Below, piece after piece: positions 9,113 to 25,359 of a stretch of DNA of 64,000 bases. Every line of letters begins with the position of its first letter. Position 1 is the first letter of the stretch. The stretch is taken from positions 1-64,000 of the forward strand of contig NZ_AVPS01000010.1 of the NCBI RefSeq assembly GCF_000768345.1, in the 5' to 3' direction. Position numbers and translations under genes: made by a program. The stretch comes from Lysobacter concretionis Ko07 = DSM 16239. Lineage in GTDB: Bacteria > Pseudomonadota > Gammaproteobacteria > Xanthomonadales > Xanthomonadaceae. The notes under the pieces are model-generated. The model searched no databases. It was not told the DNA's origin and was given only the letters and a program-made list of their open reading frames with translations.

Positions 9113-10444
9113 TCAGAACCAGATCCGCACGCCCGCCACGACGCGGGTATCGCGGGTGTCCTCGCCCTCGGCATGGCGGAAGTCCGCAGTGTTGCCGAAC
9201 GCGCGTTCGTGGACGACGCCGATGTACGGGGCGAACTTCCGGTCGATCTCGTAGCGCAGCCGGACGCCGGCCTCTACCGAACTCAGGCCGGAACCGATGC
9301 CGCGCGCCGGGTCATCCTTGCCAAAGGCAGTGACCTCGACCAGCGGCTGCAGGATCAGCCGGTTGGTCAGCAGCAGCTCGTATTCGACCTCCATGTTGGC
9401 CGCGGTCTGGCCGGATTCGCCGACGTAGGCGGTGGCCTTCATCTCGAACTTGTAGGGCGCCAGGCCCTGCACGCCGAACGCGGCCCAGGTCTGCGAGCCA
9501 CCCGGACTGAAGTCGTGCTTGATGCCGGCCAGCACATCCCACCAGGTCGACACGCTGCGCCCGTAGAACGCTTCGAGCTGGGCCGACTCGGTCTTGCCGC
9601 CGGTGCGTTCGCCTTCGGTGCGCAGCCACAACCGGTTGAGATCGCTGCCCACCCAGGCCTGGCCTTCCCACAGCTCGCCCGAACCGGGCTCGGCATCCCA
9701 CGCTTCCAGTCGGTTGAACGCGACGTAGTGGTTGATCTCGGGCGCGTGCGCCATCGGCAGCTTCAGTACCGGGAAGGCGGCCGCGCGGTCGGCATCGGTC
9801 ACCACCGGAATCGGCGTGATCGGTTCCGTGCGTGGTGGCGCGCCGTGCCCCATTGCGGCGTGATCCATCGCGCCGTGGTCCATGCCCGAGTGATCGGAAG
9901 CCTTGGCCGGCGATGCTGGAGCGGACTGGTGCGCAGCGTGGTCGGTGCTGCCGTGTCCCATGGCGGCATGATCCATCGCGCCGTGGTCCATGCCCGAGTG
10001 ATCGGAAGCCTTGGCCGGCGATGCCGGAGCGGGCTGGTGCGCGGCGTGGTCGGTGCTGCCGTGTCCCATGGCGGCGTGATCCACCGTGCCGTGATCCTTG
10101 CCCGAGTGATCGGAAGCCTTGGCAGGCGATGCCGGCACCGCCTGATGCGCGGCGTGATCGGAGCCGCCGTGCTCCATTGCGGCGTGATCCATCGCGCCGT
10201 GATCCATGCCCGAGTGGCTGGAGGCCTTGGCAGGTGGAACCGGAGCCGGGTGATGCACGGCGTGGTCCATGCCCGTGTGGTCGGTGTCCTTCCGGCTGGT
10301 GTCGTCGCCGTGGTTCATTGCCGAGTGGTCAACCGGCGTGGGCGCGGCATGGCCGTGATGATCCTGGGCGATGGCGGCGCCATGCAGGGCCAGGCTCAGT
10401 GCGGCTGCCAGTACGGTGCTGGCGGGAGAAAGAAAACGGCTCAT
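9113..10444 (-). CDS. copB: Copper resistance outer-membrane protein CopB
   Basis: A 443-residue outer-membrane protein thought to bind or store copper at the cell surface together with CopA. Start ATG 10444 overlaps the copA stop (ATGA); an open frame continues upstream but only as an antisense-like extension into copA. Signal peptide TVLAAALSLALHGAAIAQ. Residues about 28-201 are a His/Met-rich region built of HSGMDHGAMDHAAMGHGS-like repeats. The CopB beta-barrel domain follows from about residue 215 (PMAHAPEINHYVAFNRLEAW) and ends in VAGVRIWF with the terminal Phe typical of outer-membrane proteins. The repeat region is encoded by near-identical 108-bp units. Confidence 0.93.
   Translation of the reverse strand: MSRFLSPASTVLAAALSLALHGAAIAQDHHGHAAPTPVDHSAMNHGDDTSRKDTDHTGMDHAVHHPAPVPPAKASSHSGMDHGAMDHAAMEHGGSDHAAHQAVPASPAKASDHSGKDHGTVDHAAMGHGSTDHAAHQPAPASPAKASDHSGMDHGAMDHAAMGHGSTDHAAHQSAPASPAKASDHSGMDHGAMDHAAMGHGAPPRTEPITPIPVVTDADRAAAFPVLKLPMAHAPEINHYVAFNRLEAWDAEPGSGELWEGQAWVGSDLNRLWLRTEGERTGGKTESAQLEAFYGRSVSTWWDVLAGIKHDFSPGGSQTWAAFGVQGLAPYKFEMKATAYVGESGQTAANMEVEYELLLTNRLILQPLVEVTAFGKDDPARGIGSGLSSVEAGVRLRYEIDRKFAPYIGVVHERAFGNTADFRHAEGEDTRDTRVVAGVRIWF
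9842..10216 (-). repeat. 108-bp tandem repeats in copB (36-residue Met/His units)
   Basis: Matching points fall at 9862, 9970, 10078 and 10186, exactly 108 bases apart, so there are about 3.5 copies. Each unit encodes HSGMDHGAMDHAAMGHGS followed by TDHAAHQ.APASPAKASD. The two copies nearest the barrel domain are almost identical, pointing to recent duplication or gene conversion. Confidence 0.93.
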
Positions 10445-12273
10445 TCCTCGACCCTCACTTCGCGCATCATTCCGGCTTCCATGTGGTACAGCAGGTGGCA
10501 GTGGAAGGCCCAGCGGCCCAGGGCGTCGGCGCGGACGCGGTAGCTGCGTTTGGTGCCCGGCGGGATATCGACGGTGTGCTTGCGCAGGTGGAAATTGCCG
10601 TTCTCGTCCTCCAGGTCGCTCCACATGCCATGCAGGTGGATCGGGTGGCCCATCATCGTGTCGTTGACCAGCACGATCCGCATGCGCTCGCCGTAGTTGA
10701 GCCGCAGCGGTTCGACATCGGCGAACTTCTGGCCGTCGAACGACCAGGCGAACTTCTCCATGTGGCCGGTCAGGTGCAGCTCCACCTCGCGGCCGGGTTC
10801 GCGGCCGTCCGGATCGTCGAACAGGCTCTTCATCGCGCCGTAGGTCAGCACCGTGCGGCCGTTGTCGCGCAGTCCCATGCCGGGGTCGTCCAGCTTCGGC
10901 GCCAGTGACATCGCCTGCATGTCGACCAGCGGGTTGCCGGTCTCACTGGCGGGGTGTTGCTGCATGCCGCCGGCCGAGTGGTCCATGGCCTGCATGTCGT
11001 GGCCGGCGTGCCCCATGGCCGCATGGTCCGTGCCGGCTTGGCTGGTGCTTCCATGCCCCATGCTGCTGTGGTCCATCGCGCCATGATTCATACCACCGTG
11101 ATCCATGCCGCCATGCCCCATGCCGCCATGCCCCATGTCGTCCATGGTCAGCAGCGGGCGCGGGTCCAGTGGTGGTACGGGTGGTTGCAGGCCCTGGCGC
11201 ACCGCGAGGGTGCCGCGGGCGTAGCCGGTCCGGCCCATGTCCTGGGCAAAGATCGCAAACGCGTCCGCGCCGGCCGGCTCGACCAGCACGTCGAAGGTTT
11301 CGGCCACCGCGATGCGGAACTCGTCGACGGTGACGGGGTGGATGTACTGCCCGTCGGCGGCGACCACGGTCATCTTCAGGCCGGGGATGCGCACGTCGAA
11401 ATAGGTCATCGCCGAGCCGTTGATGAAGCGCAGCAGGATCTTCTCGCCGGGCTTGAACAGGCCGGTCCAGTTGCCGGCCGGCGCGGTGCCGTTCATCAGG
11501 AACGTATAGGTGTGGCCGTTGATGTCGGAGATGTCGGACGGCGTCATCCGCATCTGGCCCCACATCCTGCGGTCCTGCACCGTGGCCGACAGGCCATCGC
11601 GGCGTGCGTCACGCACGAAGTCGCCGACGGTGCGCTGGTAGTAGTTGTCGTAGCTGGCGTTCTTCTTCATGCGCCGGAACAGCGCGCCCGGGTCCATGTC
11701 GGTCCAGTCCGACAGCAGCACCACGTGCTCGCGGTCGTAGTGGTAAGGCGCCGGTGCGCGCGGCTCGACGATGATCGGGCCGTACAGACCGGCCTGCTCC
11801 TGGAACATCGAATGGCTGTGGTACCAGTAGGTGCCGGACTGCTGCAGCTGGAATTTGTAGGTGAAGGTCTCGCCGGGCGCGATGCCGTCGAAGCTCAGGC
11901 CGGGCACGCCGTCCATGTTGGCCGGCAGCAGGATGCCGTGCCAATGGATCGACGAATATGCATTGCGCAGGCGGTTGGCCACGCGCACGGTCACGGTGTC
12001 GCCCTCGCGCCAGCGCAGCAGCGGGGCCGGCAGCGTGCCATTGACGGTGACGGCGGGACGCGCGCGACCGGTGAAGTCGACCATCGAGCCGCCGATGGAC
12101 AGGTCGAAGTCGGTGCCGCTCAGGGTCTGCAACGGCCGGGGAGTGCCGCTGGCGGCCAGCGCCGGCAAGCGCCAGAGCCCCATGCCGGCAGCGAGGCCGC
12201 CGACGGCCAGGCCGGTGACAAAACGACGGCGGGAGGGCGCTGCCGGGGGGAGGCCGGAAGAATCGGTGGACAT
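10441..12273 (-). CDS. copA: Multicopper oxidase CopA (Tat-exported)
   Basis: A 610-residue periplasmic multicopper oxidase that detoxifies Cu(I) by oxidation and by binding. A twin-arginine signal (SRRRFVTGLAVGGLAAGMGL) shows it is exported folded. Cupredoxin copper ligands are all visible: IHWHGILLP, WYHSHSMF, HPIHLHGMW and the C-terminal HCHLLYHMEAGM carrying the type 1 Cys with its Met. Between about residues 374 and 406 lies a Met/His segment of GHGGMGHGGMDHGGMNHG type, as in plasmid and xanthomonad CopA. SD GGAG precedes ATG 12273. It is 133 bases after copL and overlaps copB by four bases, so copL-copA-copB is the likely transcript order. Confidence 0.96.
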   Translation of the reverse strand: MSTDSSGLPPAAPSRRRFVTGLAVGGLAAGMGLWRLPALAASGTPRPLQTLSGTDFDLSIGGSMVDFTGRARPAVTVNGTLPAPLLRWREGDTVTVRVANRLRNAYSSIHWHGILLPANMDGVPGLSFDGIAPGETFTYKFQLQQSGTYWYHSHSMFQEQAGLYGPIIVEPRAPAPYHYDREHVVLLSDWTDMDPGALFRRMKKNASYDNYYQRTVGDFVRDARRDGLSATVQDRRMWGQMRMTPSDISDINGHTYTFLMNGTAPAGNWTGLFKPGEKILLRFINGSAMTYFDVRIPGLKMTVVAADGQYIHPVTVDEFRIAVAETFDVLVEPAGADAFAIFAQDMGRTGYARGTLAVRQGLQPPVPPLDPRPLLTMDDMGHGGMGHGGMDHGGMNHGAMDHSSMGHGSTSQAGTDHAAMGHAGHDMQAMDHSAGGMQQHPASETGNPLVDMQAMSLAPKLDDPGMGLRDNGRTVLTYGAMKSLFDDPDGREPGREVELHLTGHMEKFAWSFDGQKFADVEPLRLNYGERMRIVLVNDTMMGHPIHLHGMWSDLEDENGNFHLRKHTVDIPPGTKRSYRVRADALGRWAFHCHLLYHMEAGMMREVRVEE

Positions 12274-12406
12274 GGAAACACTCCGTGAATTCGGGAAAGT
12301 CGGGCTCCGCCGGAAGGACGGAACCTGTCGCCTTCTGCCGCGTCGGCACCGGCAAGGGCGCGTCGTCAGGCAGGCGGTAGCGGGCGCCGGACAACGGCAC
12401 CCGGAC

Positions 12407-12808
12407 TCAGCGGATCGGAGGTCGGTAGCGGTCGTGGAGCGCGGGGGCCGGATGGTCGGCCAGGGTCGGGCGCACCGCCAGGATCTGTGGAGCGATCCGC
12501 CATCCCTGGGCCGGTGCCGTCAGCGTCGCCAGCAACCCGGCCGGGCAGGCGACATCACAGGACGTGCCTGTGCAGCAATCGGCTGTGGCGGAATGGTTGT
12601 CGGACAACGGCGCTCCGGTCGCGGGCGTTGCCGCGCTCGAATGCTCCATGCAGGTCGCGTGATCGGTCGGGGCGGGCAGCGGGTCCGATGTCGCAGCGGC
12701 CATCGCGGCATGCTGCACCTGCATCTGCGTGGCCGCCACCGCGAGTCCCGATCCGTTGAGGATCAGGGCGATGCAGAGCAGGACACGCAGGAGCAGGCGG
12801 GCGGACAT
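12407..12808 (-). CDS. copL: CopL-family metal-binding regulatory protein (first copy)
   Basis: A 133-residue protein with a signal-like N-terminus (LLLRVLLCIALILNGSGLAVA), His/Met pairs, a Cys cluster (HATCMEHSS, ADCCTGTSCDVACP) and the short C-terminal RPPI ending seen in CopL proteins. In Xanthomonas, copL immediately precedes copAB and is needed for copper-inducible copAB expression, though how it works is not settled. Here it has the same place and strand. It starts only 47 bases after the hutG stop, so a copper-responsive promoter would have to lie within those bases or inside the end of hutG. No copR/copS or cueR-like regulator is present in the window. Confidence 0.85.
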   Translation of the reverse strand: MSARLLLRVLLCIALILNGSGLAVAATQMQVQHAAMAAATSDPLPAPTDHATCMEHSSAATPATGAPLSDNHSATADCCTGTSCDVACPAGLLATLTAPAQGWRIAPQILAVRPTLADHPAPALHDRYRPPIR

Positions 12809-12855
12809 GACCGGCTACTCTAACCGGGAGCGTGCGGATACCGGTGAACGGGGAT

Positions 12856-13764
12856 TCACTGCGCCAGCCCGTGGATCAGCCGCGCTGCGACCTTGGCCGT
12901 GACGTTGTCCCGGTCCAGCGGTGGACACAGTTCCGCGATGTCGCAGAGCTTCAAGCGGCCCGTTCCCGCGACGGCGGCGATGAATGGTTCCAGCGTCTCC
13001 AGCGTGACGCCTCGCGGATTCGCGGCGCTGACACCCGGCGCCACCGCATGTGGCAGGACGTCCAGGCAGACGGTCAGGTAGATCGAGTCGGCCGGCTGCA
13101 GCCACTGCAGGAGTTGCTCGACCTGCGCGGCGGCGTTGGCCGGTGTCATGTCCACATCCATCAGGAACCGTGTGCCGGTCTCGGCGGCGGTGTGGAACAG
13201 GCGGCGCGTGTTGGAGGCTTTGCTGACCCCGAGGCAGAAATAATCCAGCGCGATGCCGTGTTCCGCGGCGTGGCGGAGGGCCTGCCGGAACGGGGTGCCG
13301 GAGGTGGCGACGGAGCTGTCGCGCAGGTCGAAGTGCGCGTCCAGGTTGACGATGGCGATGCGTCCGGCACCTGAGCTGTTTGCCAGTCCCAGGTAACTGG
13401 CAAACGCGATTTCATGTCCGCCGCCCATGCCGACCGGGAAGTGGCCGTCCGCCAGCAGCTCCGTCATGCGGTCCGCGTAGCGCTGTTGCGCACCTTCGAG
13501 GTCGCCGTCGGTGCAGGCGATGTCGCCCGTGTCATACAACGGGCGCGAATGGGCGACCGGCAGGCTGGCCAGCGCCTGCCGCAGCGCCGCCGGCCCCTGC
13601 GCCGCGCCGGTCCGGCCCTGGTTCCGGCGCACGCCTTCGTCGCTGGCGAATCCCAGCAGGGCGATGCCCGGCTCGGCGTGGCGCTCCACGGGACGCACGA
13701 TCTGGTGCCAGCGGAAGGTTTCCGGATCCGCTTCGTCGTCGACTCGACCGGTCCACTTGTCCAT
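12856..13764 (-). CDS. hutG: Formimidoylglutamase HutG
   Basis: A 302-residue ureohydrolase (arginase-family) enzyme that splits N-formimidoyl-glutamate into glutamate and formamide, the last step of the direct hut pathway. Manganese-ligand motifs are present: GMGGGHEIAF, NLDAHFDLR and CLDVLPHAVAPGVSA. An in-frame TTG directly precedes ATG 13764; I take the ATG because the GAGGGGAAC upstream is better spaced for it. It follows hutH with a 3-base gap. Its end is only 47 bases from copL, joining the hut and copper blocks. Confidence 0.93.
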   Translation of the reverse strand: MDKWTGRVDDEADPETFRWHQIVRPVERHAEPGIALLGFASDEGVRRNQGRTGAAQGPAALRQALASLPVAHSRPLYDTGDIACTDGDLEGAQQRYADRMTELLADGHFPVGMGGGHEIAFASYLGLANSSGAGRIAIVNLDAHFDLRDSSVATSGTPFRQALRHAAEHGIALDYFCLGVSKASNTRRLFHTAAETGTRFLMDVDMTPANAAAQVEQLLQWLQPADSIYLTVCLDVLPHAVAPGVSAANPRGVTLETLEPFIAAVAGTGRLKLCDIAELCPPLDRDNVTAKVAARLIHGLAQ

Positions 13765-13767
13765 CAA

Positions 13768-15297
13768 TCAGTTCCCCTCATCCGGAAATTCGGTGCGTAC
13801 CAGTTCGGCGAGCCGGCCGTTGGCGATCAGGGTATCGGCGGCGGCGATTTCCGGCGCGAAATAGCGGTCCTCGTCATATCGGGGGACGACGGATCGCACC
13901 AGGTCGAAGGCCTGTTCGAGCCGGGCGGAGGAGCGCAGCGGACGCAGGAAATCGATGCCCTGGCAGGCTGCCAGCAATTCGATGGCGACGATGCGACGCA
14001 CGTTGATCGCCACATCGCCTGCCTTGCGGGCTGCGAACGTGGCCATGCTGACGTGGTCCTCCTGGTTGGCCGAGGTCGGCATCGAGTCGATGCTGGCCGG
14101 ATGCGCCAGGGTCTTGTTCTCGCTGGCCAGTGCCGCCGCGGTCACGTGGGCGATCATGAAGCCGGAGTTGATGCCCGGGTTGGCGACCAGGAACGCCGGC
14201 AGCCCCGACAGATGGGCGTCGACGAGCAGTGCGATGCGGCGCTCGGAGAGCGCGCCGACCTCGGAGGTCGCGATGGCGATCTGGTCGGCCGCGAAGGCGA
14301 CCGGCTCGGCGTGGAAATTCCCGCCGGACAGGACTTCGCCGGTGTCCGGAAACAGCAGCGGATTGTCGGACACCGCATTGGCTTCGATCCACAGGGTGTT
14401 GGCCGATTGCCCCAGCAGGTCCCAGCACGCGCCCATCACCTGCGGCTGGCAGCGCAGGCTGTACGGGTCCTGCACGCGGGAGTCGCCGGTCCGGTGGGAC
14501 TCACGGATCGCGCTGTCGGTGAGCAAGTCGCGGTACAGGCCGGCGACGTGGATCTGGCCGGGCTGTCCGCGCAATGCGTGGATGCGTGCGTCGAAAGGCG
14601 TGTCCGAGCCGCGGGCGGCATCGACCGTCAAGGCGCCGGCCAGCACCGCGGCGGCGAACGCCTGCTCCGCCCGGAACAGCGCGACCAGTGCGATGGCGGT
14701 GGAAACCTGGGTGCCGTTGAGCAGCGCCAGACCCTCTTTGGCGCCCAGCTGGATCGGCGTGAGGCCGGCACGGCGCAGGCCTTCGTCGGCGGGCATGACC
14801 TCGCCGTCGACGCGGACCGAACCCTCGCCCATCAGCGCGAGGGTCAGATGGGCCAGTGGGGCCAGATCCCCGGATGCGCCGACCGAGCCTTGGGCCGGGA
14901 TACACGGCCAGACCTGCGCGTTGTACAGCCCGACCATGCTTTCCAGCAGTTCCCAGCGCACGCCGGAATGCCCGCGCGCGAGCGAGGCGATTTTCAGCGC
15001 GAGGATCAGGCGGACGGTGTCGTCGTCCAGCAAGGACCCGACGCCGACGGCATGCGAGCGCACGAGGTTGGTCTGCAGCTGTTCCAACTGGTCGGAGGGA
15101 ATGTGGATGCTGGCCAACAGGCCGAATCCGGTATTGATCCCGTAGGCCGGCGCGCCGGTGGCGACGATGGCCGCGACCGTGCAAGCCGCCTCGTCCACCC
15201 GGCTCTTCGCCGTCGGCGGTAGGGAAACCGGATCGAACTGCCTGGCAATGGAGCGCAACTGGGACAGTGGAATCCGTCCGGGGGTCAGCATGGGCAT
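13768..15297 (-). CDS. hutH: Histidine ammonia-lyase HutH
   Basis: Cytoplasmic enzyme of about 509 residues that deaminates L-histidine to trans-urocanate. The Ala-Ser-Gly triad that forms the MIO cofactor is seen in [15 protein letters not shown]. Other family signatures are [12 protein letters not shown] near residue 60 and [10 protein letters not shown]. The open frame continues upstream into hutU, but the recognisable protein starts at [17 protein letters not shown] 15297 or ATG 15291 are both possible, and neither has a strong SD. Length matches the family. It lies 7 bases after the hutU stop, so the two are translated from one message. Confidence 0.94.
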
Positions 15298-15304
15298 GGG
15301 TCGG

Positions 15305-16996
<1,692 letters not shown>

Positions 16997-17007
16997 CGAT
17001 AACTCCA

Positions 17008-17733
17008 TTACGAATGGGGCGTGTTGCCCACGTGGAAAGTGCCAACGAAGCGGTAGCTGGCAGCGGGGTGTGCAAGACGTACAAAGCTGGCCACCCGCCC
17101 GCGCGACCAGGTCCGCCGGGTCAGTGACAGCAGCGGATCGCCCGGACTGATCTGCAGCAGTTTTGCGGTGCCCTTGTTGGCCAGCTCGGCTTCGATCGTG
17201 TGTTCGGTCCGCTCCAGCGGCGCCGTGCGGGTCAGGTATTCGTGCGGGGTCTCGATGGTGAAATCCACCTCGAGATACTCCGGTGCACTGGCAGGATTGA
17301 CGAAGCGGTCCTCCAGCTGGAGGGGCTTGCCGTCCGCGAGGTGGAGCAGCCGTGAATGGAACAGCTCGCTGCCCGCCGCCAGGGAAAATTCCCGTGCCAA
17401 CGGCGCCCGCGCCTCGATCGTTTCGCGTACCAGGACGTTGACGACATGGAGCTGCCCACGCGCGCGGATATCGTCGCGGATCGAGCGGACCTCGAACATC
17501 GGCGACTCGACTTTCGGCACGGCGACAAAGGTGCCGACGCCCTGCACCCGGATGACCACGTCGGAGTCGCTGAGCTCGCGGATCGCACGGTTCACGGTCA
17601 TGCGCGAAACACCGAACTGGACGACCAGATCGTTCTCGCTCGGGATCCGGCTGTGCGGCGGCCAGACGCCGCTCGTGATCTGCCCGAGGATGTACTGTTT
17701 CAGCTTTGCGTATTCGGGCTGTGGCTTTTCCAT
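17008..17733 (-). CDS. hutC: Histidine utilisation repressor HutC (GntR family)
   Basis: A 241-residue GntR/HutC-family repressor. The N-terminal winged helix (residues 1-75) contains [26 protein letters not shown], with the recognition helix at SRMTVNRAI. The remainder is the UTRA ligand-binding domain, which in HutC binds urocanate and releases DNA. It is the first gene of the minus-strand hut run and starts 15 bases from an operator-like sequence, so autoregulation is likely. A similar half-site near the divergent promoter suggests that it also controls the copL2/TonB receptor operon (inference). ATG 17733 has only a weak SD. Confidence 0.92.
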
Positions 17734-17747
17734 GAGCTCAGCATGGC

Positions 17748-17759
17748 ATGTCTATACAT
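17748..17759. promoter_or_regulatory. HutC-like operator in front of hutC
   Basis: ATGTCTATACAT has palindromic ATGT/ACAT arms. On the minus strand its core reads TGTATAGACA, which matches the core of known HutC sites as I remember them (CTTGTATAGACAAG in Klebsiella). It lies just upstream of the hutC ATG, where a bound repressor would block hut transcription or initiation. Confidence 0.6.
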
Positions 17760-17820
17760 CCTGTGGAAGGTCCTGCCGGAACCATTCGCAGGGGTCTGGA
17801 AAAGTTCATCGGGAATCTGA

Positions 17821-17864
17821 TTGACACCTTCGCTACGGGCGTGGTACTTGGTGGTATAGACAAC
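17821..17864 (+). promoter_or_regulatory. Divergent promoter region with second HutC-like site
   Basis: A perfect TTGACA (17821-17826) could be a -35 box for the plus-strand operon; the best -10 candidate, TACTTG 18 bases on, is poor. GGTATAGACAAC follows at 17853-17864 and shares GTATAGACA with the core beside hutC. It lies 20-32 bases ahead of the copL2 ATG, a repressor-like position. Confidence 0.45.
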
Positions 17865-17884
17865 TGGAAATCCCGCCTTTCCCG

Positions 17885-18295
17885 ATGCGCCATCTCCCGC
17901 TACTGCTCCGTTGCCTGATCGTCCTGGCGTTCTGCCTCGACGGCAGCGCCATGGCGTGGCAGAAGAGCGCCATGGCGGCGGGAGCCGTGCATCATGGGCA
18001 CGACACCCACGTCACCAGTGACGGCCATAGAACGACCGGTCACGAGCCGGATCCGGTCGCGGTTCTGGCGGATGGTTCGGAGCATGCCGAGGCTGGTTCT
18101 CGGGGTGTCATCCATGAAAATTGCGATTGCACGGAAACCGGATGCGACTGTGCATGCGGCTTCGTTACCTTGGCGCTGGCCAGAGGTCTTCCGCTTGTCG
18201 ATGCGCCCTGGATCGGTTTTGTGCCGATCTCCGGTGATCTGACTACTGCCGGCAGAGGCGTACCGTCCTCGCTCTTTCGACCTCCCATCGGTTGA
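17885..18295 (+). CDS. CopL-family metal-binding protein (second copy)
   Basis: A 136-residue protein with a signal-like N-terminus (LPLLLRCLIVLAFCLDGSAMA), a His-rich part (AVHHGHDTHVTSDGHRTTGHE), a dense Cys cluster (ENCDCTETGCDCACGF) and the ending SLFRPPIG. This is the same overall plan and same terminal RPPI as the copL in front of copA, but with little other identity. It is the first gene of a plus-strand operon leading into a TonB receptor. By analogy with copL it may be a metal-responsive leader or a small metal carrier. The function is inferred only. Confidence 0.7.
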   Translation: MRHLPLLLRCLIVLAFCLDGSAMAWQKSAMAAGAVHHGHDTHVTSDGHRTTGHEPDPVAVLADGSEHAEAGSRGVIHENCDCTETGCDCACGFVTLALARGLPLVDAPWIGFVPISGDLTTAGRGVPSSLFRPPIG

Positions 18296-18405
18296 TCTTG
18301 TCAGGCTGCCCGGGTGGTGGCCTTCTTCAGTTGCGGGTGCGGCTGCAAAAAGCCGGCCCGAGCCATGCCGACAAGTTCTGACAATCACCGTTTGGGGAGT
18401 TCACC

Positions 18406-21123
18406 ATGTTCTGTAAGCGCAACCATCTCGCGCTGGTAATCGGCGTGTTGCTGTCCGCCGGTATCGCGACCCCTGCTTCTGCCCAGTCCGCTGATGCCGC
18501 TGAAAAGTCTGTGGCGGCCACGCTGGATTCAGTCACCGTGACCGGTAGCAACATCAAGGGCGCAGCCATTTCAGGTGTGGGTCCGGTTTCTATCATCGAT
18601 GCCGAAGCGATCGAGCGCTCCGGTGCGATCTCGGTGGAAACCCTGTTGCAGCGTATCCCCGCATCAGCGGGGTCCGCCGGTAGCCAGACCAGTGCGTACT
18701 GGACGGGCGATGGCTGGGGCACTGCGCAGGTGAATCTGCGTGGTCTCGGTGCGTCCAGGACCCTGGTCCTGATCAATGGCCGGCGCATGGTCAACGGCGG
18801 CACTGGCGCCAACAGCGCCGTGGACCTCAACACGATCCCGCTTTCCATGATCGAGCGGATCGAGGTCTTGAAGGACGGCGCATCTGCGATCTACGGCGCC
18901 GATGCGGTCGCCGGCGTCGTCAACATCATCACCAAGCGAAAGTTCGACGGGGCCAAGCTGGCCGTCATGTACGGGCAGACCGCCCAGGGCGACGGCGAGG
19001 AGACCAGTGCTGATTTGACCTTCGGGACGAACGGTGAGCGCGGTTCAATCCTGCTGGGCGTCACCTACAACGAAAGCAAGGCGGTTCCGATGGCCAGTCG
19101 TGCGCCATGCAACCTGGCCGAGCGAGGGGGTGAGCTGGTGTGCGTGGGCAGCTCAGCCACCACAGGAGGCCGGGCCGTCCTTGCCGACGGCACGATGGTC
19201 AATTTCAACCAGACACCGGGCGGCAACGGAGACGCCTATGAGCGGTATGACGGCAGCAAGCACAACGTCAACAACAATGGCTACCTCAATGCGGTCAATC
19301 CGGTGAAGCGCTATGGCGTCACCGCTCTGGGTGAGTACGACCTCACCGAAGATACGCGGCTGTATGGCGAATTTCTCTACACCAACCGCAGTTCCCACCA
19401 GTCGACGGCACCGGGCACGGTCGGCACTTTCCGCACCATCCGCATCGGCGCGAATCACCCGACCAACCCCACCGGGCAGGACCTGACCCTGATCCGCCGC
19501 AACCTGAAGGAGGCCGGTCCGCGCATCGCATTCCAGGACGTGGATACGTTCCGTGGAGTGCTCGGGCTGGAAGGCGCCTTTGGCGAAACATGGTCCTGGG
19601 ATGCGTCGATGAACTACGGACGCAACACCGCAGAGGACGGCTTCACCAACGTGGTCAACCTGGACCGGTTCGATGCCACGCTGGATCGCAGCCGCTGCAG
19701 CACCACGCCGGGCGCCGCGATCCCGTGCGCCGACTATCTTGGATATGGCGATCTCACCCAGGAGGCCATCGACTACATCACGTACAAGTCAATCAACAAC
19801 GGTGGCAACTCGATGATGGCCTTCCAGGGCAAGGTCTCGGGCCAATTGTTCGAGCTGCCGGCAGGCACAGTCGGCATGGCAGCAGGTGTGGAGGTGCGCA
19901 CGGAACGGGGCTGGCGCAATCCCGACATCCTGACCCAGCAGGGAATCGCCAATACCAACCGGGCCGACATCATTGCCGGCGAATACAAGGCCAAGGAGGC
20001 GTTTGTCGAATGGCTGGTTCCCCTGCTCGCCGACATGCCGCTGGTCCAGCGCCTGGACCTGAGTGCGGCGGTTCGCTATTCCGATTACGAGCTGTTCGGC
20101 GATGACACGAACTACAAGCTCGGTCTGGACTGGCAGATGACCGACAGCTTCAAGATCAGGGGGACCACGTCCACCGCATTCCGCGTTCCCAGCATTCCAC
20201 AGCTGTTCGGTGGCGTGACCACCGGCAACCTCACCACCACCGATCCCTGCAGCGGCTGGTCCTCGATGCCGTCTTCTTCGGTCGTGGCGCAGAACTGCAA
20301 GGCCGACGGAGTGCCGCCAGGCTATACGCAGCTGGGCAATATGGTCCTGACCTATGGCGGTGGCAACATCGACCTGAAGCCGGAGGACGCCAAGACGCTC
20401 ACTGTCGGCATGGCCTGGACGCCCACCTTCACCGACGGCCTGACCCTGACCCTGGATTACTACAAGATCGATATCAGCAACGCCGTCGCCAGTGTGGCGG
20501 GGTCAACCAAGCTGGCGATCTGCTACAACACGCCAGGAATGGCCCATCCGTTCTGTTCGGACAGCAACTTCACCCGCAACCCGGTGACCGGCGAGATCGA
20601 CTATCTGTCGAGCCGGCCAGTGAACGCTGCAGATGAAACGGCTTCTGGCGTCGATCTGGGATTGGTGTGGCAATTCCCCATCGGCGGCCTGCAGGCCCTT
20701 GTCGATCTGGATATGTCCTACCTCAAGGAATACAGCGTCCGTCCGTATGCGAACGCGAACCTGATCGAATATGCCGGGAAGATCACCGGCGGGAGAGGAA
20801 GTTACGCGCATTGGCGTGGCCTGGGCACCTTCGGCCTGACGGGCGACCGCTGGTCGGGCAACTACACCGTCCAGTTCATCGGCAAAGCCGAGGACATCAA
20901 TGCCAGCAAGGGGGATATCGGCGCATCCGTGGGGAATATTTTCTACCACAACCTCCAGGCCGACTACTCGCTCACCAAAGCGATCAAGGTCTCGGCCGGC
21001 ATTGACAACCTGTTCGACAAGTCCGCGCCTTTCATCCAGAGCTACACCGATGCCAACACGGACACGATGACCTACGACCTGCTCGGACGTCGCTGGAACC
21101 TTCGCTTCTCCTACAGCTGGTAA
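18406..21123 (+). CDS. TonB-dependent outer-membrane receptor
   Basis: A 905-residue TonB-dependent receptor. Signal peptide LALVIGVLLSAGIATPASAQ, then a TonB-box-like LDSVTVTGS and a plug domain at about residues 55-170 (ETLLQRIPASAG, VNLRGLGASRTLVLINGRRM, IERIEVLKDGASAIYGADAVAGVVNIITK). A long 22-strand barrel follows and ends in GRRWNLRFSYSW with the terminal aromatic residue. At about 900 residues without a carboxypeptidase-like N-extension it resembles the large xanthomonad receptors rather than the roughly 700-residue copper receptors OprC/NosA. GGGGAG lies before the ATG. The substrate is unknown; linked PepSY/reductase genes hint at a chelated metal, while the hut neighbours hint at histidine or urocanate. 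Confidence 0.93.
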   Translation: MFCKRNHLALVIGVLLSAGIATPASAQSADAAEKSVAATLDSVTVTGSNIKGAAISGVGPVSIIDAEAIERSGAISVETLLQRIPASAGSAGSQTSAYWTGDGWGTAQVNLRGLGASRTLVLINGRRMVNGGTGANSAVDLNTIPLSMIERIEVLKDGASAIYGADAVAGVVNIITKRKFDGAKLAVMYGQTAQGDGEETSADLTFGTNGERGSILLGVTYNESKAVPMASRAPCNLAERGGELVCVGSSATTGGRAVLADGTMVNFNQTPGGNGDAYERYDGSKHNVNNNGYLNAVNPVKRYGVTALGEYDLTEDTRLYGEFLYTNRSSHQSTAPGTVGTFRTIRIGANHPTNPTGQDLTLIRRNLKEAGPRIAFQDVDTFRGVLGLEGAFGETWSWDASMNYGRNTAEDGFTNVVNLDRFDATLDRSRCSTTPGAAIPCADYLGYGDLTQEAIDYITYKSINNGGNSMMAFQGKVSGQLFELPAGTVGMAAGVEVRTERGWRNPDILTQQGIANTNRADIIAGEYKAKEAFVEWLVPLLADMPLVQRLDLSAAVRYSDYELFGDDTNYKLGLDWQMTDSFKIRGTTSTAFRVPSIPQLFGGVTTGNLTTTDPCSGWSSMPSSSVVAQNCKADGVPPGYTQLGNMVLTYGGGNIDLKPEDAKTLTVGMAWTPTFTDGLTLTLDYYKIDISNAVASVAGSTKLAICYNTPGMAHPFCSDSNFTRNPVTGEIDYLSSRPVNAADETASGVDLGLVWQFPIGGLQALVDLDMSYLKEYSVRPYANANLIEYAGKITGGRGSYAHWRGLGTFGLTGDRWSGNYTVQFIGKAEDINASKGDIGASVGNIFYHNLQADYSLTKAIKVSAGIDNLFDKSAPFIQSYTDANTDTMTYDLLGRRWNLRFSYSW

Positions 21124-21130
21124 CCGGCTT

Positions 21131-21164
21131 GTTTCTCCCCGGCACACGCCTGCCGGGGAGAAAC
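21131..21164 (+). terminator. Perfect 14-bp hairpin after the TonB receptor gene
   Basis: GTTTCTCCCCGGCA pairs perfectly with TGCCGGGGAGAAAC around a six-base loop, eight bases after the stop codon. Only short T runs follow (AGGTTTCCCTTT), so it may be a leaky terminator or an mRNA 3'-end stabiliser that sets lower expression of the two downstream membrane genes. Confidence 0.6.
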
Positions 21165-21202
21165 AGGTTTCCCTTTGCCCATACCGGCAGGAACCCCTTT
21201 TT

Positions 21203-21895
21203 ATGAAACCCGCATTCTGGGCCCGTCGGGCCCACAAGTGGATCGCCCTGGTCATCGGCGTGCAGGCGCTGCTGTGGTCGATCGGCGGCCTGTACATGAC
21301 CGCCATGTCGATCGACTTCATCCATGGCGACCACCTCAATCACGTGGCGGCCGAACCGCTCCCGCAACAGGCCGACCTGGTCGATCCCGCCGTGGTTGCC
21401 GCGCGCTATCCGGCCATGACCGGCTTCCGCCTCAAGCGGCTGCTCGGTGAACCGGTCTACGAGGTCCATCACGCCGGTGGCGTCGACCTGGTCGATGCGG
21501 TCACCGGTCGGCCAGCCGGTCCGGTCGACGAGGAAAAGGCCAGCCAACTGGCGCTGTCGGCCTATCAGGGCAACGGACCGCTGGAATCGTTGCAGTTGCT
21601 CGACAAGGCGCCGCAGGAAGTGGGCACCCGGCCGGTGCCGATGTGGCAGGCGAAGTTCGATGACAGCGGCAATACCGCGCTGTATTTCTCGCCACAGACC
21701 GGAAACCTGCTGGCGACCCGGCATACCTATTGGCGGGTGTTCGACTTCCTCTGGATGCTCCACATCATGGATTACGAGCAGCGCTCGAACGTCAACAACA
21801 CCTTGCTGCGCGTTGCGTCCACCGTCGGCCTGCTGTTCATGCTCAGCGGCGTGTGGTTGCTGTTCTACAGCTTCCGCAGGAGGTCGGCGGCATGA
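21203..21895 (+). CDS. PepSY-associated transmembrane protein
   Basis: A 230-residue PepSY-domain membrane protein. The first helix is at residues 11-32 (HKWIALVIGVQALLWSIGGL), a periplasmic PepSY part lies in the middle, and a C-terminal helix spans about 200-222 (ASTVGLLFMLSGVWLLFYSF). Such proteins often sit beside TonB receptors and are linked to reduction or processing of iron-siderophore complexes in the periplasm. Conserved His residues near helices (HKW, LHIMDY) could bind haem, as in ferric-reductase-like relatives; this is inference. The next gene begins inside its stop codon (ATGA), and the two share the same N-terminal design, suggesting an ancient duplication and a heteromeric complex. 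Confidence 0.82.
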   Translation: MKPAFWARRAHKWIALVIGVQALLWSIGGLYMTAMSIDFIHGDHLNHVAAEPLPQQADLVDPAVVAARYPAMTGFRLKRLLGEPVYEVHHAGGVDLVDAVTGRPAGPVDEEKASQLALSAYQGNGPLESLQLLDKAPQEVGTRPVPMWQAKFDDSGNTALYFSPQTGNLLATRHTYWRVFDFLWMLHIMDYEQRSNVNNTLLRVASTVGLLFMLSGVWLLFYSFRRRSAA

Positions 21896-23724
21896 CTCCC
21901 TGGATGCGGACACTGCATAAATGGGTCGGCCTGATCATCGGACTGCAGTTCGTGATCTGGACGGCCAGCGGTCTGGTCATGAGCCTGCTGGACACGGCGA
22001 CCGTGAACAACCTGCACCACCTGGCGCCCGTGGCCGAGGCGCGGCCATGGCCGGCGGCGACGATCTCGCCCGCCGCCATCGTCGACCGGGAGAGTCGCGC
22101 GATCCAGACCGTCGAGACCCGCTGGCTGGCCGAGCGGCCGGTCTATCGCCTGAGCGACGGCACGGTCAGCTGGCTGGCTGATATCCGGGATGGCAGCCCG
22201 GTGCCCGTGACCGCGGCCGACGTCGCCGCCATCGCCACCCGGGATTACGTCGGCGATGGACGCGCCGGAGTGCCGGAGCTGATGCGCGAACCCACATGGG
22301 AAACGCGCAAGCGCGACGGGCCGATATGGCGCGTTGCGTTCTCCGACGACGATGCGACCACGCTGTACGTGTCCGGGCAGGACGGCGCCATCCTGGAGCG
22401 GCGCAATGACACGTGGCGATTGTTCGACTTCGCCATGATGCTGCACTTCATGGATTACACGAGGCAGCAGGATTTCAACAATCCGCTGATCGTGATGGCC
22501 GGTGCGGGTGGGCTGTGGCTCGCGCTGTCCGGCATCTGGCTGTTCTTCGCCAGTTTCCGCCTCGGCGAATTCGTTCCGGCCCGCTGGCGGCCACGCCGCG
22601 AATTGGCGGTGTATGGCGCCGACGGGAGCAAGTTGCGCTCGGTGGAGTCACACACCGGCGACACGGTGTACCTCGCGCTGGGACGCAACGGGTTGCAACT
22701 GCCGTCCAACTGCGGCGGGGGCCAGAGTTGCGGACTGTGCGTGGTGCGCGTTCGGGGCCATGCACCGCCGCCGACCAGCGCCGACCGGGCGCATATCGAC
22801 GCGACCCGCCTCCGGTCGGGCTATCGGCTGGCCTGCAACCTGCCGGTGACGTCGGATGGCCAGATCGAGGTGGCCGGAGGCGCGGCGCTGTGGACGGAAC
22901 GTGTCGCCACAGTGGTCAGCGCCACGGCGGTGACGCCGTTCCTGCGCGAGTTCGTGCTGGCGCCGGAGCAGCCGCTGGGACCGGAATTCCAGCCCGGTGC
23001 TTATCTGCAGGTGCATGTCCCCGGTTACCGCCTGCAGCGCGAGGATCTGGATCATCCGGAGCACCACCGGCAGGACTGGTTCGGTCTGAGCCTGCCCGAC
23101 AACCTGGTCTGCAAGGAGCCGGTCCGCCGCTCCTATTCGTTGTCGCTTCCGGTGGAGCAGGCCGGCGGGAATGTCACCCTGCTTGCGCGGTTCAGCCCCG
23201 GTCGGCAGGACAGGAAGCAACAGCCCGCCGGCAAGGGATCGACCTACCTCTACTCATTGAAGCCGGGCGATCGCGTCTGTTTCAGCGGACCGTTTGGCGA
23301 TTTTGCGATAAAGCCCGGCGCGAGGGAGAAGGTGTTCATCGGCGGTGGGGCCGGCATGGCGCCGCTGCGGGCGATGGTGCATTCCCTGCTCGAATCCGGC
23401 GCGCAGGAGCGCATCCACTTCTGGTACGGCGCGCGCAACCTGCGGGAGGCGCCGTATGTCGAGGAGATGGAGGCGCTGGCCGCGAAGCATGCGAACTTCA
23501 CCTGGCACCTGGTGCTGTCCGAGGCCGCGGAACATGGCGCGGGCCTGATCCGGGGACTGGTGCACGAAGCCACCGATGAAGGCTTGCTGCAGACGCATCC
23601 CGATCTGAAGTCCTGCGAGTTCTACCTTTGCGGTCCCCCGGCGATGCTTGCCGCGACCCGCAACCTGCTGAACCGTCTCGGCATTGCCGAGGAGCAGATT
23701 GCCTACGACGACTTCAAGATCTAG
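21892..23724 (+). CDS. PepSY membrane domain fused to NqrF-like ferredoxin/FAD/NAD(P)H reductase
   Basis: A 610-residue fusion. Residues 1-225 repeat the PepSY membrane plan (LHKWVGLIIGLQFVIWTASG; AGAGGLWLALSGIWLFFASF). Residues about 245-320 form a plant-type 2Fe-2S ferredoxin domain with Cys in NCGGGQSCGLCVV and LACNLPV. Residues 330-610 form a flavin reductase with the FAD motif RRSYSLSLP, nucleotide-binding GGGAGMAPLRAM and the terminal FYLCGPPAML, closest to the NqrF subunit of Na+-NQR. The likely role is to pass electrons from cytosolic NAD(P)H across the membrane to a periplasmic metal complex brought in by the upstream receptor. Start ATG 21892 overlaps the previous stop; an upstream open extension is not part of the protein. 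Confidence 0.88.
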   Translation: MTPWMRTLHKWVGLIIGLQFVIWTASGLVMSLLDTATVNNLHHLAPVAEARPWPAATISPAAIVDRESRAIQTVETRWLAERPVYRLSDGTVSWLADIRDGSPVPVTAADVAAIATRDYVGDGRAGVPELMREPTWETRKRDGPIWRVAFSDDDATTLYVSGQDGAILERRNDTWRLFDFAMMLHFMDYTRQQDFNNPLIVMAGAGGLWLALSGIWLFFASFRLGEFVPARWRPRRELAVYGADGSKLRSVESHTGDTVYLALGRNGLQLPSNCGGGQSCGLCVVRVRGHAPPPTSADRAHIDATRLRSGYRLACNLPVTSDGQIEVAGGAALWTERVATVVSATAVTPFLREFVLAPEQPLGPEFQPGAYLQVHVPGYRLQREDLDHPEHHRQDWFGLSLPDNLVCKEPVRRSYSLSLPVEQAGGNVTLLARFSPGRQDRKQQPAGKGSTYLYSLKPGDRVCFSGPFGDFAIKPGAREKVFIGGGAGMAPLRAMVHSLLESGAQERIHFWYGARNLREAPYVEEMEALAAKHANFTWHLVLSEAAEHGAGLIRGLVHEATDEGLLQTHPDLKSCEFYLCGPPAMLAATRNLLNRLGIAEEQIAYDDFKI

Positions 23725-23746
23725 CCGCGGAGTTGTATCTGGCGAG

Positions 23747-23780
23747 GGTGCCGGTGGTTCCATTCGTGGACACCGGCACC
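23747..23780 (+). terminator. Hairpin with TTCG loop ending the receptor/reductase operon
   Basis: GGTGCCGGTG pairs with CACCGGCACC. Inside it TCCA pairs with TGGA around a TTCG tetraloop, leaving a two-base bulge. It begins 22 bases after the reductase stop. No T tract follows, so it may stop transcription only with help or mark the 3' end of the message. Confidence 0.5.
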
Positions 23781-23985: not shown

Positions 23986-25359
23986 ATGCCGTATCCAGCG
24001 TTCGATCCTCGGTCCATCGCCAGACATGCAAGGCCCCGCACATCAGTGCTTTCGTTGCTCTACGCCGCCATCGTCGGCGTGACACTGATACCGCTCATCG
24101 CGCAGGCCCAGCCGGCGGCGCCGCTGTCCGCTGCCGACTCCAACCCGGCGAAGCTCGGCTGGATGGTGGGCTCGCCGCCACCGGCGGACAAAATCATCCG
24201 CTTTTCCGACCCGGACTATTTCAGCTTTCCCAAGCTGCGCTGGACCGTCTGCCACTTCCGCCAACTTATGCCGACGGTGAACGTCAGCCGGGGACTGGGC
24301 GCACCGGTGCCGCTCAAACGCAGCATCGACGACGCGATCGACGCCGTCACCTTCACCCCGCTGGGCGGTGACACGCCGATGACCTGGGAGCAATCGCTGG
24401 CGGCCAACTACACCGACGGCATCGTCGTCCTCCACCACGGCGTGGTGGTCTATGAACGCTACAACGGCTGTCTCGACGAAGCCGGCCAGCACGGCGCGAT
24501 GTCGGTGACCAAATCGCTGACCGGACTGCTCGGGGAAATGCTGGTGGCCGAGGGCACGCTCGATGCCACCGCGAAGGTCGACACGATCGTGCCCGAACTG
24601 GCCCGCAGCGCGTTCGGCGATGCCACCGTCCGGCAGGTGCTCGACATGGCCACCGGGCTGCATTACGACGAGAACTACGCCGATCCGGAGTCGGAAGTCT
24701 GGCGCTACGCGGCCGCCGGCAACCCGCTGCCCAAACCTGCCGATTACACCGGCCCGCGTACCTACTACGAGTACCTCGAAACCGTGCGCAAGCAAGGCCG
24801 GCACGGCGTGGCCTTCGGCTACAAGACGATCAACAGCGATGCGCTCGGCTGGATCATCGCGCGGGTCAGCGGCAAGTCCGTCGCGCAACTGCTGTCCGAG
24901 CGTATCTGGAGCCGGATGGGCGCCGAGCAGGACGGGTACTACACCGTGGACTCCATCGGCACGCCCTTCGCCGGTGGCGGCTTCAACGCCGGTCTGCGCG
25001 ACATGGCCCGCCTCGGCCAGTTGCTGCTCGACGACGGCGTGGTCAACGGCCAGCGCCTGCTGCCCAAAGCCGCCATTGACGACATCCGCAGTGGCGGCGA
25101 CAAGGCCGCCTTCACGAAGGCCGGTTACCCGCTGCTCAAGGGCTGGAGCTACCGCAACATGTGGTGGGTCACCCACAACCGGCACGGTGCGTTCATGGCC
25201 CGCGGTGTGCACGGGCAGGCCCTCTACATTGACCCCACGGCCGACGTGGTCATCGCCCGCTTCAGCTCGCACCCGGTTGCCGGCAACGCCATCAACGACC
25301 CGACCACGCTGCCGGCGTTTGCGGCGGTGGCGGAGTATCTGGTGGAGCAGCGTGATTGA
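23986..25359 (+). CDS. Secreted SxxK serine hydrolase (class C beta-lactamase/NylB-like fold)
   Basis: A 457-residue exported hydrolase of the beta-lactamase/transpeptidase-like family. A signal segment (LLYAAIVGVTLIPLIAQAQ) follows about 25 charged residues. The nucleophile motif SVTK is at about residue 173, the Tyr motif in FGYKTINSDALGW, and HGVHGQALYIDP near the end fits the third conserved element. The closest resemblance is to 6-aminohexanoate-dimer hydrolase and esterase relatives rather than to true AmpC. Substrate unknown. AGGAGG is placed before the ATG. It stands alone: 261 bases separate it from the reductase gene, with only the hairpin in between, and the next gene is convergent. 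Confidence 0.85.
   Translation: MPYPAFDPRSIARHARPRTSVLSLLYAAIVGVTLIPLIAQAQPAAPLSAADSNPAKLGWMVGSPPPADKIIRFSDPDYFSFPKLRWTVCHFRQLMPTVNVSRGLGAPVPLKRSIDDAIDAVTFTPLGGDTPMTWEQSLAANYTDGIVVLHHGVVVYERYNGCLDEAGQHGAMSVTKSLTGLLGEMLVAEGTLDATAKVDTIVPELARSAFGDATVRQVLDMATGLHYDENYADPESEVWRYAAAGNPLPKPADYTGPRTYYEYLETVRKQGRHGVAFGYKTINSDALGWIIARVSGKSVAQLLSERIWSRMGAEQDGYYTVDSIGTPFAGGGFNAGLRDMARLGQLLLDDGVVNGQRLLPKAAIDDIRSGGDKAAFTKAGYPLLKGWSYRNMWWVTHNRHGAFMARGVHGQALYIDPTADVVIARFSSHPVAGNAINDPTTLPAFAAVAEYLVEQRD

Follow-up and report, generated by a model that had tools for sequence, protein, structure and literature searches.

In Bordetella the leader CruR precedes an operon that encodes a TonB receptor and a PepSY protein (PMC9426467, PMC12914433), and the receptor, CrtA, takes up chelated copper for haem-copper oxidases (PMC12914433, PMC13038864). 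CruR stalls at an RAPP motif, and copper lifts this arrest and leads to Rho termination (PMC9426467). TonB-like proteins are among the commonest neighbours of CutF-like leaders (PMC9973294). Arrest peptides of the RAPP/RGPP type have been reported 5′ of TonB receptor and PepSY genes (PMC12992588). For Caulobacterales and Sphingomonadales, a TonB receptor under HutC control and with a potential role in histidine uptake has been predicted (Leyn et al., 2016; PMC5343134). Here, we describe an operon in a stretch of 64 000 nucleotides from Lysobacter concretionis Ko07 (contig NZ_AVPS01000010.1; the window) that consists of a copL-type leader gene, the gene for a TonB-dependent receptor and two PepSY genes, termed pepA and pepR. 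It is divergent from hutC-hutU-hutH-hutG on the − strand, with HutC-type operators in between, and this is the most unusual feature of the locus. The initial annotation named histidine among its proposed tests but neither the divergent hut operon nor the operators. In our reading, HutC controls the operon and CopL gates it, a Cu(II) chelate, probably Cu(II)–histidine, is imported, and a split, NADH-fed enzyme resembling FoxB and CrpH reduces it; we consider the chances of this reading to be about even.

The four genes are on one strand and two of them overlap, as the initial annotation had stated:

17885–18295, + strand: copL, a Cys/His-rich leader open reading frame (ORF) of 136 amino acids with the C-terminus FRPPIG (NCBIfam CopL_fam NF033807, 81.0 bits against a cut-off of 40)
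18406–21123, + strand: TonB-dependent receptor gene, 905 amino acids (Pfam Plug 83.8 bits, barrel 117.7 bits), a proposed receptor for copper/histidine complexes
21203–21895, + strand: pepA, 230 amino acids, half reductase with a transmembrane–PepSY–transmembrane layout (Pfam PepSY_TM 35.6 bits against a gathering threshold of 28.8)
21892–23724, + strand: pepR, 610 amino acids from the ATG at 21892 (PepSY_TM 36.6 bits against 28.8, followed by Fer2, FAD_binding_6 and NAD_binding_1)

The family score confirms the assignment of the first product as a CopL-type protein. The receptor gene starts 110 bases after copL and is followed after 79 bases by pepA, while pepA and pepR share four bases (ATGA), and the four genes probably form a single transcription unit.

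A contig search for related loci gave 18 loci. In a survey of 149 genomes of the family, strong PepR matches (at least 955 bits) are found in 14, with our own genome and its two copies counted once and one match cut by a contig end; four further genomes contain a distant full-length PepR (614–670 bits) and one a short remnant. The locus is absent from all five other genomes of the same genus drawn in this survey. A small ORF ending in RPPI is present 5′ of the receptor gene in all 26 related loci that were read, with a gap of 93–131 bases, and both PepSY genes lie 3′ of it in all 24 loci that are readable downstream, the remaining two ending at contig ends. Because it is kept across these 26 and 24 loci, the leader–receptor–PepSY order is not due to chance. 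The four genes are indeed conserved together, so that one of the refutations named in the initial annotation does not apply.

HutC recognizes the consensus TGTA-N2-TACA and histidine acts on it via urocanate, as established in Pseudomonas (PMC12977541). Two operator-like sites lie between hutC and copL:

17749–17758, no strand: HutC-type operator 1, TGTCTATACA, on the hutC side, one base off the published consensus
17853–17862, no strand: HutC-type operator 2, GGTATAGACA, 22 bases 5′ of the copL start, two bases off the published consensus

Both sites are kept across the lineage, and the genome contains exact TGTCTATACA just twice, each time in a hutC–copL intergenic region. The 800 bases 5′ of the receptor gene in the 26 related loci were scanned for a box, defined as TGTATATACA, TGTCTATACA or TGTATAGACA with no more than one mismatch. 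Such a box is present in all 21 loci with HutC in the genome and in none of the five without it. The best match to HutC in these five genomes reaches at most 69.2 bits at 30–31% identity, while the Stenotrophomonas HutC proteins score 126–142 bits in the same similarity search; all ten HutC proteins that were submitted to NCBIfam exceed the TIGR02018 cut-off. The hutC gene adjoins the operon in 16 of the 26 loci, in 14 of them with further hut genes in the stretch. In the other two (L071 and L074) hutC stands alone beside the operon and other hut genes are absent from the 18 kb that were read.

In five Stenotrophomonas genomes the hut genes are located elsewhere in the genome, yet the copL operator is kept. 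The exact 11-mer TGTATATACAA occurs at nine places in these genomes, which correspond to five hut promoters and four copL promoters, and the fifth copL box matches over ten bases with a mismatch at the eleventh. The reversed TGTATATACAA pattern has no occurrence genome-wide in the same five. The exact TGTA-N2-TACA sequence is found 5′ of copL in the five Stenotrophomonas and 5′ of the receptor gene in three loci of another class of the phylum (L129–L131). As read from these sites, the operator varies by lineage and, within each lineage, the copL promoter resembles the genome's own hut promoter. Chance adjacency to hut was considered as an explanation and is rejected by the operators at unlinked operons. 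Together, the sites give strong signs that the operon is under HutC control, and HutC would bind at the two window operators.

Receptor orthologues were searched for in 398 genomes of the phylum and in 385 genomes of the class of G381. Matches of at least 1146 bits come from G000 (two), G023, G036, G366, G381, G501, G470, G468, G392 and G646, with a truncated one in G411. As the search profile included G366, G381, G470 and both of our own copies, and contained near-identical kin of G023 and G036, four orthologues are independent of it: L131 (G501), L132 (G468), L133 (G392) and L134 (G646). The first is accompanied by copB, hutC, both PepSY halves, CopD and a CopA-type ATPase. At L132 hutC is divergent and a CusCBA–pepA–pepR cluster (L124) adjoins, while L133 and L134 each have the PepSY pair. 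When the same scan is applied to these wider orthologues, L129, L130 and L131 combine an adjacent HutC with an exact box and L122 and L132 an adjacent HutC with a box containing one mismatch. In L134 the box is exact and HutC is encoded at another site of the genome (286 bits), and L133 has no box and no HutC above the cut-off (best match 54 bits). HutC thus recurs in other lineages, at L122, L127 and L129–L132. In total, six genomes carry the receptor and the PepSY pair without HutC, and all six lack the box. As a control, we took 13 of 23 lower-scoring receptor matches, which lie on 12 stretches. None of the 13 has a box under the same scan, and none of the 12 stretches yields a match of 100 bits to pepA, hutC or a copper gene; L141 has a weak match to a P-type ATPase that, at 90 bits, falls below this line.

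The exact box in L129–L131 lies 40–122 bases 5′ of the receptor match, and an RPPI leader is not evident there by eye. The second PepSY half of these three loci matches only the PepSY part of PepR. Their receptors may be the HutC-regulated genes of Caulobacterales and Sphingomonadales. Like ours, the predicted receptor would be a TonB receptor within the HutC regulon; it differs in that the published section proposes histidine as the cargo and mentions neither copper nor a PepSY reductase (PMC5343134).

PepA and PepR each span about half of the PepSY_TM profile (positions 1–162 and 2–172 of 295, respectively). FoxB and CrpH are single chains with two PepSY domains and at least four transmembrane helices, whereas here these elements are split over two chains. 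The AlphaFold models, calculated from 16 sequences each, show a helix–PepSY–helix arrangement for PepA (mean predicted local distance difference test score, pLDDT, 80.6) and the same arrangement followed by the reductase for PepR (mean pLDDT 79.5). The core of the PepSY domain in the PepA model resembles YpmB (Z-score of 8.7 over 61 residues). Identity with FoxB was not supported at the sequence level: the PepA profile retrieved one PDB chain, which is unrelated (E = 0.57). The reductase portion of PepR matches the structure of NqrF (model residues 232–610, Z-score of 37.3 over 368 residues), with which it shares the 2Fe-2S, FAD and NAD domains. Residues 249–608 score 270.6 bits against TIGR01941 (NqrF), under the equivalog cut-off of 295, and PepR differs from NqrF in its N-terminal PepSY membrane part. 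The PepSY–NqrF fusion of the initial annotation therefore stands for its domains, not as a member of the nqrF equivalog family.

Invariant residues in 19 PepR sequences are Cys274, Cys280, Cys283 and Cys315, which form the 2Fe-2S site, together with His9 and His185. In 20 PepA sequences the IHGDH motif (residues 40–44) and His187 are invariant and His11 is nearly so. FoxB and CrpH likewise belong to the PepSY_TM family, with periplasmic PepSY domains and conserved histidines near both PepSY ends. The function of CrpH requires haem-binding motifs and its model places pairs of histidines at each membrane face (PMC13038864). By analogy, two haems would be held between the PepA and PepR halves. 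The second half here also encodes the electron input, whereas the donor of FoxB is called unknown (PMC13038864). The combination of a receptor with a transmembrane electron path to a periplasmic metal, as proposed in the initial annotation, is thus supported. PepSY-like proteins with an NAD-binding domain are encoded by 1077 reported genes and have been suggested to use cytosolic NADH (PMC8238504). These lie in flavinylation clusters and are discussed for iron, and the word copper does not occur in that text. Relatives of PepR in Kangiellaceae (L021, 10681–11688; L022, 3869–4900) lie beside CusCBA and stop after the 2Fe-2S domain, with no FAD/NAD part seen, so that their electron donor would be another protein.

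The genes on the other side of the operators are the following:

17008–17733, − strand: hutC repressor (TIGR02018, 289.7 bits, cut-off 220)
15305–17008, − strand: hutU, urocanase (TIGR01228, 917.2 bits)
13768–15420 (ORF as listed), − strand: hutH, histidine ammonia-lyase (TIGR01225, 705.3 bits); the GTG start is probably too far upstream
12856–13767, − strand: hutG, formimidoylglutamase (TIGR01227, 302.2 bits)
12407–12808, − strand: second CopL-family leader, heading copAB (NF033807, 91.6 bits) and ending in RYRPPIR
10441–12273, − strand: copA, multicopper oxidase of the resistance operon (TIGR01480, 1023.2 bits)
9113–10624 (ORF as listed, overlapping copA), − strand: copB (PF05275 CopB, 290.7 bits); the match covers residues 299–503 and the true start may be further in

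Past copAB the window encodes a copper-type P-type ATPase and then an adaptor of the resistance–nodulation–division type. Two CopL leaders, both terminating in RPPI plus one residue, thus lie less than 6 kb apart, one heading resistance genes and the other the receptor operon. Xanthomonas copLAB is among the closest known systems; in family (NF033807) and RPPI ending, the leader of the receptor operon equals the copAB leader of the window. On its other flank the operon is followed by a gene for a β-lactamase-fold (PF00144) protein (23986–25359). A second PF00144 protein adjoins HutC in L132 (10788–11951), and a link of these proteins to the histidine and copper theme is uncertain.

Copper genes recur around pepA homologs. 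A strong copper-gene match is present in 31 of 44 distinct loci with a PepA homolog of at least 100 bits, or in 37 if weaker CusA/CusB matches are included; the stretches vary in length from about 9.5 to 25.5 kb, so that the counts cannot be read per kilobase, and some of the loci are closely related. Strong here means copA, copB, CopA ATPase, CopC or CopD at 100 bits or more, or CusA at 800 or more; iron genes and oxidase assembly genes were not scored. In distant relatives, CusCBA–pepA–pepR–CopC–CopD clusters are found (L020 of Alteromonadaceae, L119, L120, L121 and L125), and in L021 and L022 the PepSY pair precedes CusCBA. Copper is therefore the likely metal, as judged from gene content: where the initial annotation had left the choice between Cu(II) and Fe(III), the genomic context and the CopL-family leader favour copper over iron.

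A CopL-like protein paired with an uptake receptor, which the initial annotation called unexpected, is not without precedent: the CruR operon (PMC9426467, PMC12914433), the CutF-like leaders (PMC9973294) and the RAPP/RGPP peptides (PMC12992588) all speak against this claim. The leader in the window has no Pfam family at an E-value of 0.001, and hence no DUF2946 match. Its motif is FRPPI in all 26 loci, without an alanine between arginine and proline, and thus differs from the RAPP of CruR. In the 26-locus reading the script demanded RPP near the end of the leader ORF, and some starts were chosen mechanically and are too long; 19 leaders were aligned. Two segments concern a possible regulatory role:

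18278–18289, + strand: RPPI codons CGA CCT CCC ATC, candidate arrest motif and anti-Shine-Dalgarno segment
18296–18405, + strand: leader between copL and the receptor gene, 110 bases, whose fold pairs CCTCCC with the Shine-Dalgarno region of the receptor gene (minimum free energy −54.6)

None of 121 in-frame control windows in the window leader pairs with the Shine-Dalgarno region as well as the CCTCCC tail, and the tail takes first place against the other in-frame windows of its own copL, in the window as well as in L024, L014 and L091. The CCTCC tail is paired with this region in many of the minimum free energy folds among the loci, and the pairing of the RNA is suggestive. The motif uses CGA in 25 and CCT in 23 of the 26 loci, codons that account for 2.8% of arginines and 5.0% of prolines in the receptor genes and for 13.5% and 12.3% in the remainder of copL; these counts come from related loci and are not independent events. 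This codon use may be explained by arrest, by pairing or by both. The sign of CutF is opposite to that of CruR, and CopL has been suggested to be CutF-like (PMC9973294). The RPPI leader is compatible with both schemes. CopL would act in cis on the downstream gene and sense copper, and we lean weakly towards copper turning the operon on, since the same leader family heads copAB in the window.

The genome contains two copies of the whole hut and copL–receptor–PepSY locus, at 12001–23750 of the window and at L024. In nucleotide blocks of 250 bases the copies are 86–94% identical over hutC/hutU/hutH, 57–81% over copL and the receptor gene and 80–90% over pepA/pepR. At the protein level, PepA (93%) and PepR (91%) are close, and the receptors are only 65% identical. 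Lysobacter A03 has a receptor with 90% identity to that of the twin, while the window receptor is 61–65% identical to the family members compared and branches outside a 23-row clade containing the twin (FastTree; the branch is long and its placement unsure). We therefore rejected the window receptor as an ordinary ortholog, given its identity to the twin and its position outside the clade. In the window copy the leader and the receptor thus seem to have been exchanged, and the receptor perhaps has another ligand. A PDB sequence search with the window receptor gives 21 chains of Cir, BtuB and FepA type plus a few others; the comparison included no CrtA sequence. A second receptor of the same family, about 60% identical to that of the window, lies a few kilobases downstream in Pseudoxanthomonas L010 (14614–17250) and in a locus from a metagenome-assembled genome (L009, 6842–9439).

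The mechanism that we propose would run as follows. HutC would repress the operon jointly with the hut operon, and histidine, via urocanate, would switch it on, while nascent CopL would sense periplasmic copper and set the output of receptor and reductase. Histidine is a strong Cu(II) ligand. The TonB receptor would admit to the periplasm a Cu(II) chelate, most likely Cu(II)–histidine. PepA and PepR would be the two parts of one split FoxB/CrpH-type enzyme, in which electrons pass from NADH via FAD, the 2Fe-2S cluster and two haems between the chains to Cu(II) near the IHGDH motif of PepA. The complex would fall apart on reduction to Cu(I); the freed histidine could enter the Hut pathway and the freed copper could supply cuproenzymes or be handed to the CopA/CopB/Cus systems, whose genes are often close by. 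What the sequences show directly is the gene content and its conservation, the operator-like sites and their agreement with the presence of HutC, the copper context and the conserved domains and residues; transcription as an operon, binding of HutC, copper sensing by CopL and its sign, haem, the direction of electron flow, the metal and the ligand are inferred. The authors of a Caulobacter study proposed that in rich medium copper may titrate histidine and so keep it from being taken up, an indirect effect of which they knew no prior description (PMC8224329). Such a titration would call for a receptor under HutC control that is combined with a copper reductase.

A number of observations weigh against this reading. 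The window operators deviate from the published consensus, and at one mismatch the genome has ten sites compared with 11 for the reversed control, so that specificity is limited to the exact sites. The promoter scan gave no σ70-type site 5′ of copL. The six genomes that keep the receptor and the PepSY pair without HutC indicate that control by histidine is dispensable, and in L127 HutC lies beside a truncated receptor with no box. In seven of the 44 loci (L016, L071, L072, L074, L123, L133 and L134) the stretch yields no copper match at all. The structural likeness of PepA to FoxB is weak (Z-score of 5.6, root-mean-square deviation of 10.6 over 145 residues; Foldseek E = 0.13), and in five Stenotrophomonas the pairing of leader and Shine-Dalgarno region is ordinary, with eight to 58 of 129–171 windows equalling the tail. 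The signs of the leaders conflict: Xanthomonas CopL is required for copper-regulated copA expression (PMC9973294), whereas CruR shuts its operon off with copper. Finally, copper lowered the histidine degradation pathway of Caulobacter in rich medium (PMC8224329), which, if general, would oppose copper–histidine switching on a HutC operon; targets of HutC may thus also be silenced by copper.

Several alternatives share parts of this evidence. In a stricter, tentative and somewhat unlikely version, HutC (histidine) and CopL (copper) would form a two-key lock in which both are needed, as the requirement for both is the signature of copper–histidine itself; the complex would be imported and broken by the NADH-driven split haem enzyme, the histidine eaten and the copper passed to efflux. 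Freeing histidine from copper for use and the acquisition module of the initial annotation fit equally well, and the latter is thus one of two readings. A system for acquisition under copper shortage, as in CruR–CrtA–CrpH of Bordetella, is rather unlikely. It would take up Cu(II) on any small chelate, histidine would not be the cargo and copper would turn the operon off via CopL; control by HutC would be explained by abundant histidine binding copper and starving the cell. The same order of leader, receptor and PepSY genes, together with the import of chelated copper by CrtA (PMC12914433, PMC13038864), argues for it, as does retention of the receptor and PepSY pair in HutC-less genomes. However, the nearby copper genes are of the efflux and resistance type (oxidase assembly genes were not scored), and the copAB leader of the window is of the same family as a CopL that is required for copper-regulated copA expression in Xanthomonas (PMC9973294).

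A receptor for metal-free histidine or histidine peptides that feeds hut, with the PepSY pair meeting another need, would agree with the operators and with the histidine uptake predicted for a HutC-controlled receptor (PMC5343134). We consider it quite improbable, as the high-scoring orthologs occur with or near the PepSY pair while the lower-scoring receptors do not, and the pair stays with the receptor in HutC-less genomes. Equally improbable is an iron system for uptake of ferric chelates and reduction of Fe(III), like FoxB and VciB, although the few characterized PepSY_TM enzymes are named ferrisiderophore reductases (PMC13038864) and PepSY clusters, some with an NAD-binding domain, are discussed for iron (PMC8238504); the CopL-family leader and the copper genes at 31 of 44 loci (iron genes were not scored) point away from it. 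That a generic receptor operon merely happens to adjoin hut and cop genes in a window rich in metal genes is very improbable indeed, given that the operators are kept where operon and hut are unlinked, that HutC recurs in other lineages and that the box is missing where HutC is missing.

Compared with cruR–crtA–crpH of Bordetella pertussis, our operon has in common a Cys-bearing leader with a C-terminal Arg-..-Pro-Pro motif, a TonB receptor, a PepSY_TM protein and the copper theme. It differs in having a CopL-family leader with FRPPI instead of a DUF2946 leader with RAPP, an enzyme of two chains, one with a 2Fe-2S/FAD/NAD arm, and HutC operators. Likewise, relative to RAPP/RGPP arrest peptides and CutF leaders as described (PMC9973294, PMC12992588), it has FRPPI, HutC-type operators and a receptor with a split reductase downstream. 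The text of the CrtA paper was found to contain neither a hut nor a Xanthomonad term, and none of the papers listed in searches of the open-licence PMC literature links HutC, copper and PepSY. Each component already has known kin, including PepSY proteins with NAD-binding domains (PMC8238504); as far as our searches go, the novelty lies in the combination, in which HutC control meets, in a copper setting, a CopL leader, a receptor and a split PepSY reductase fed by NADH.

Few bacterial routes of copper acquisition are known, and the link to HutC provides histidine as a concrete candidate ligand for a copper receptor. As the donor arm is part of the same polypeptide, two genes could suffice to reconstruct the whole route from NADH to a metal in the periplasm. 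The locus also makes the idea from Caulobacter that copper titrates histidine (PMC8224329) testable. If the two-key version is true, copper is an obstacle to feeding and the operon reclaims a nutrient locked up by a toxic metal. The operon would tie amino-acid feeding to the handling of a toxic metal.

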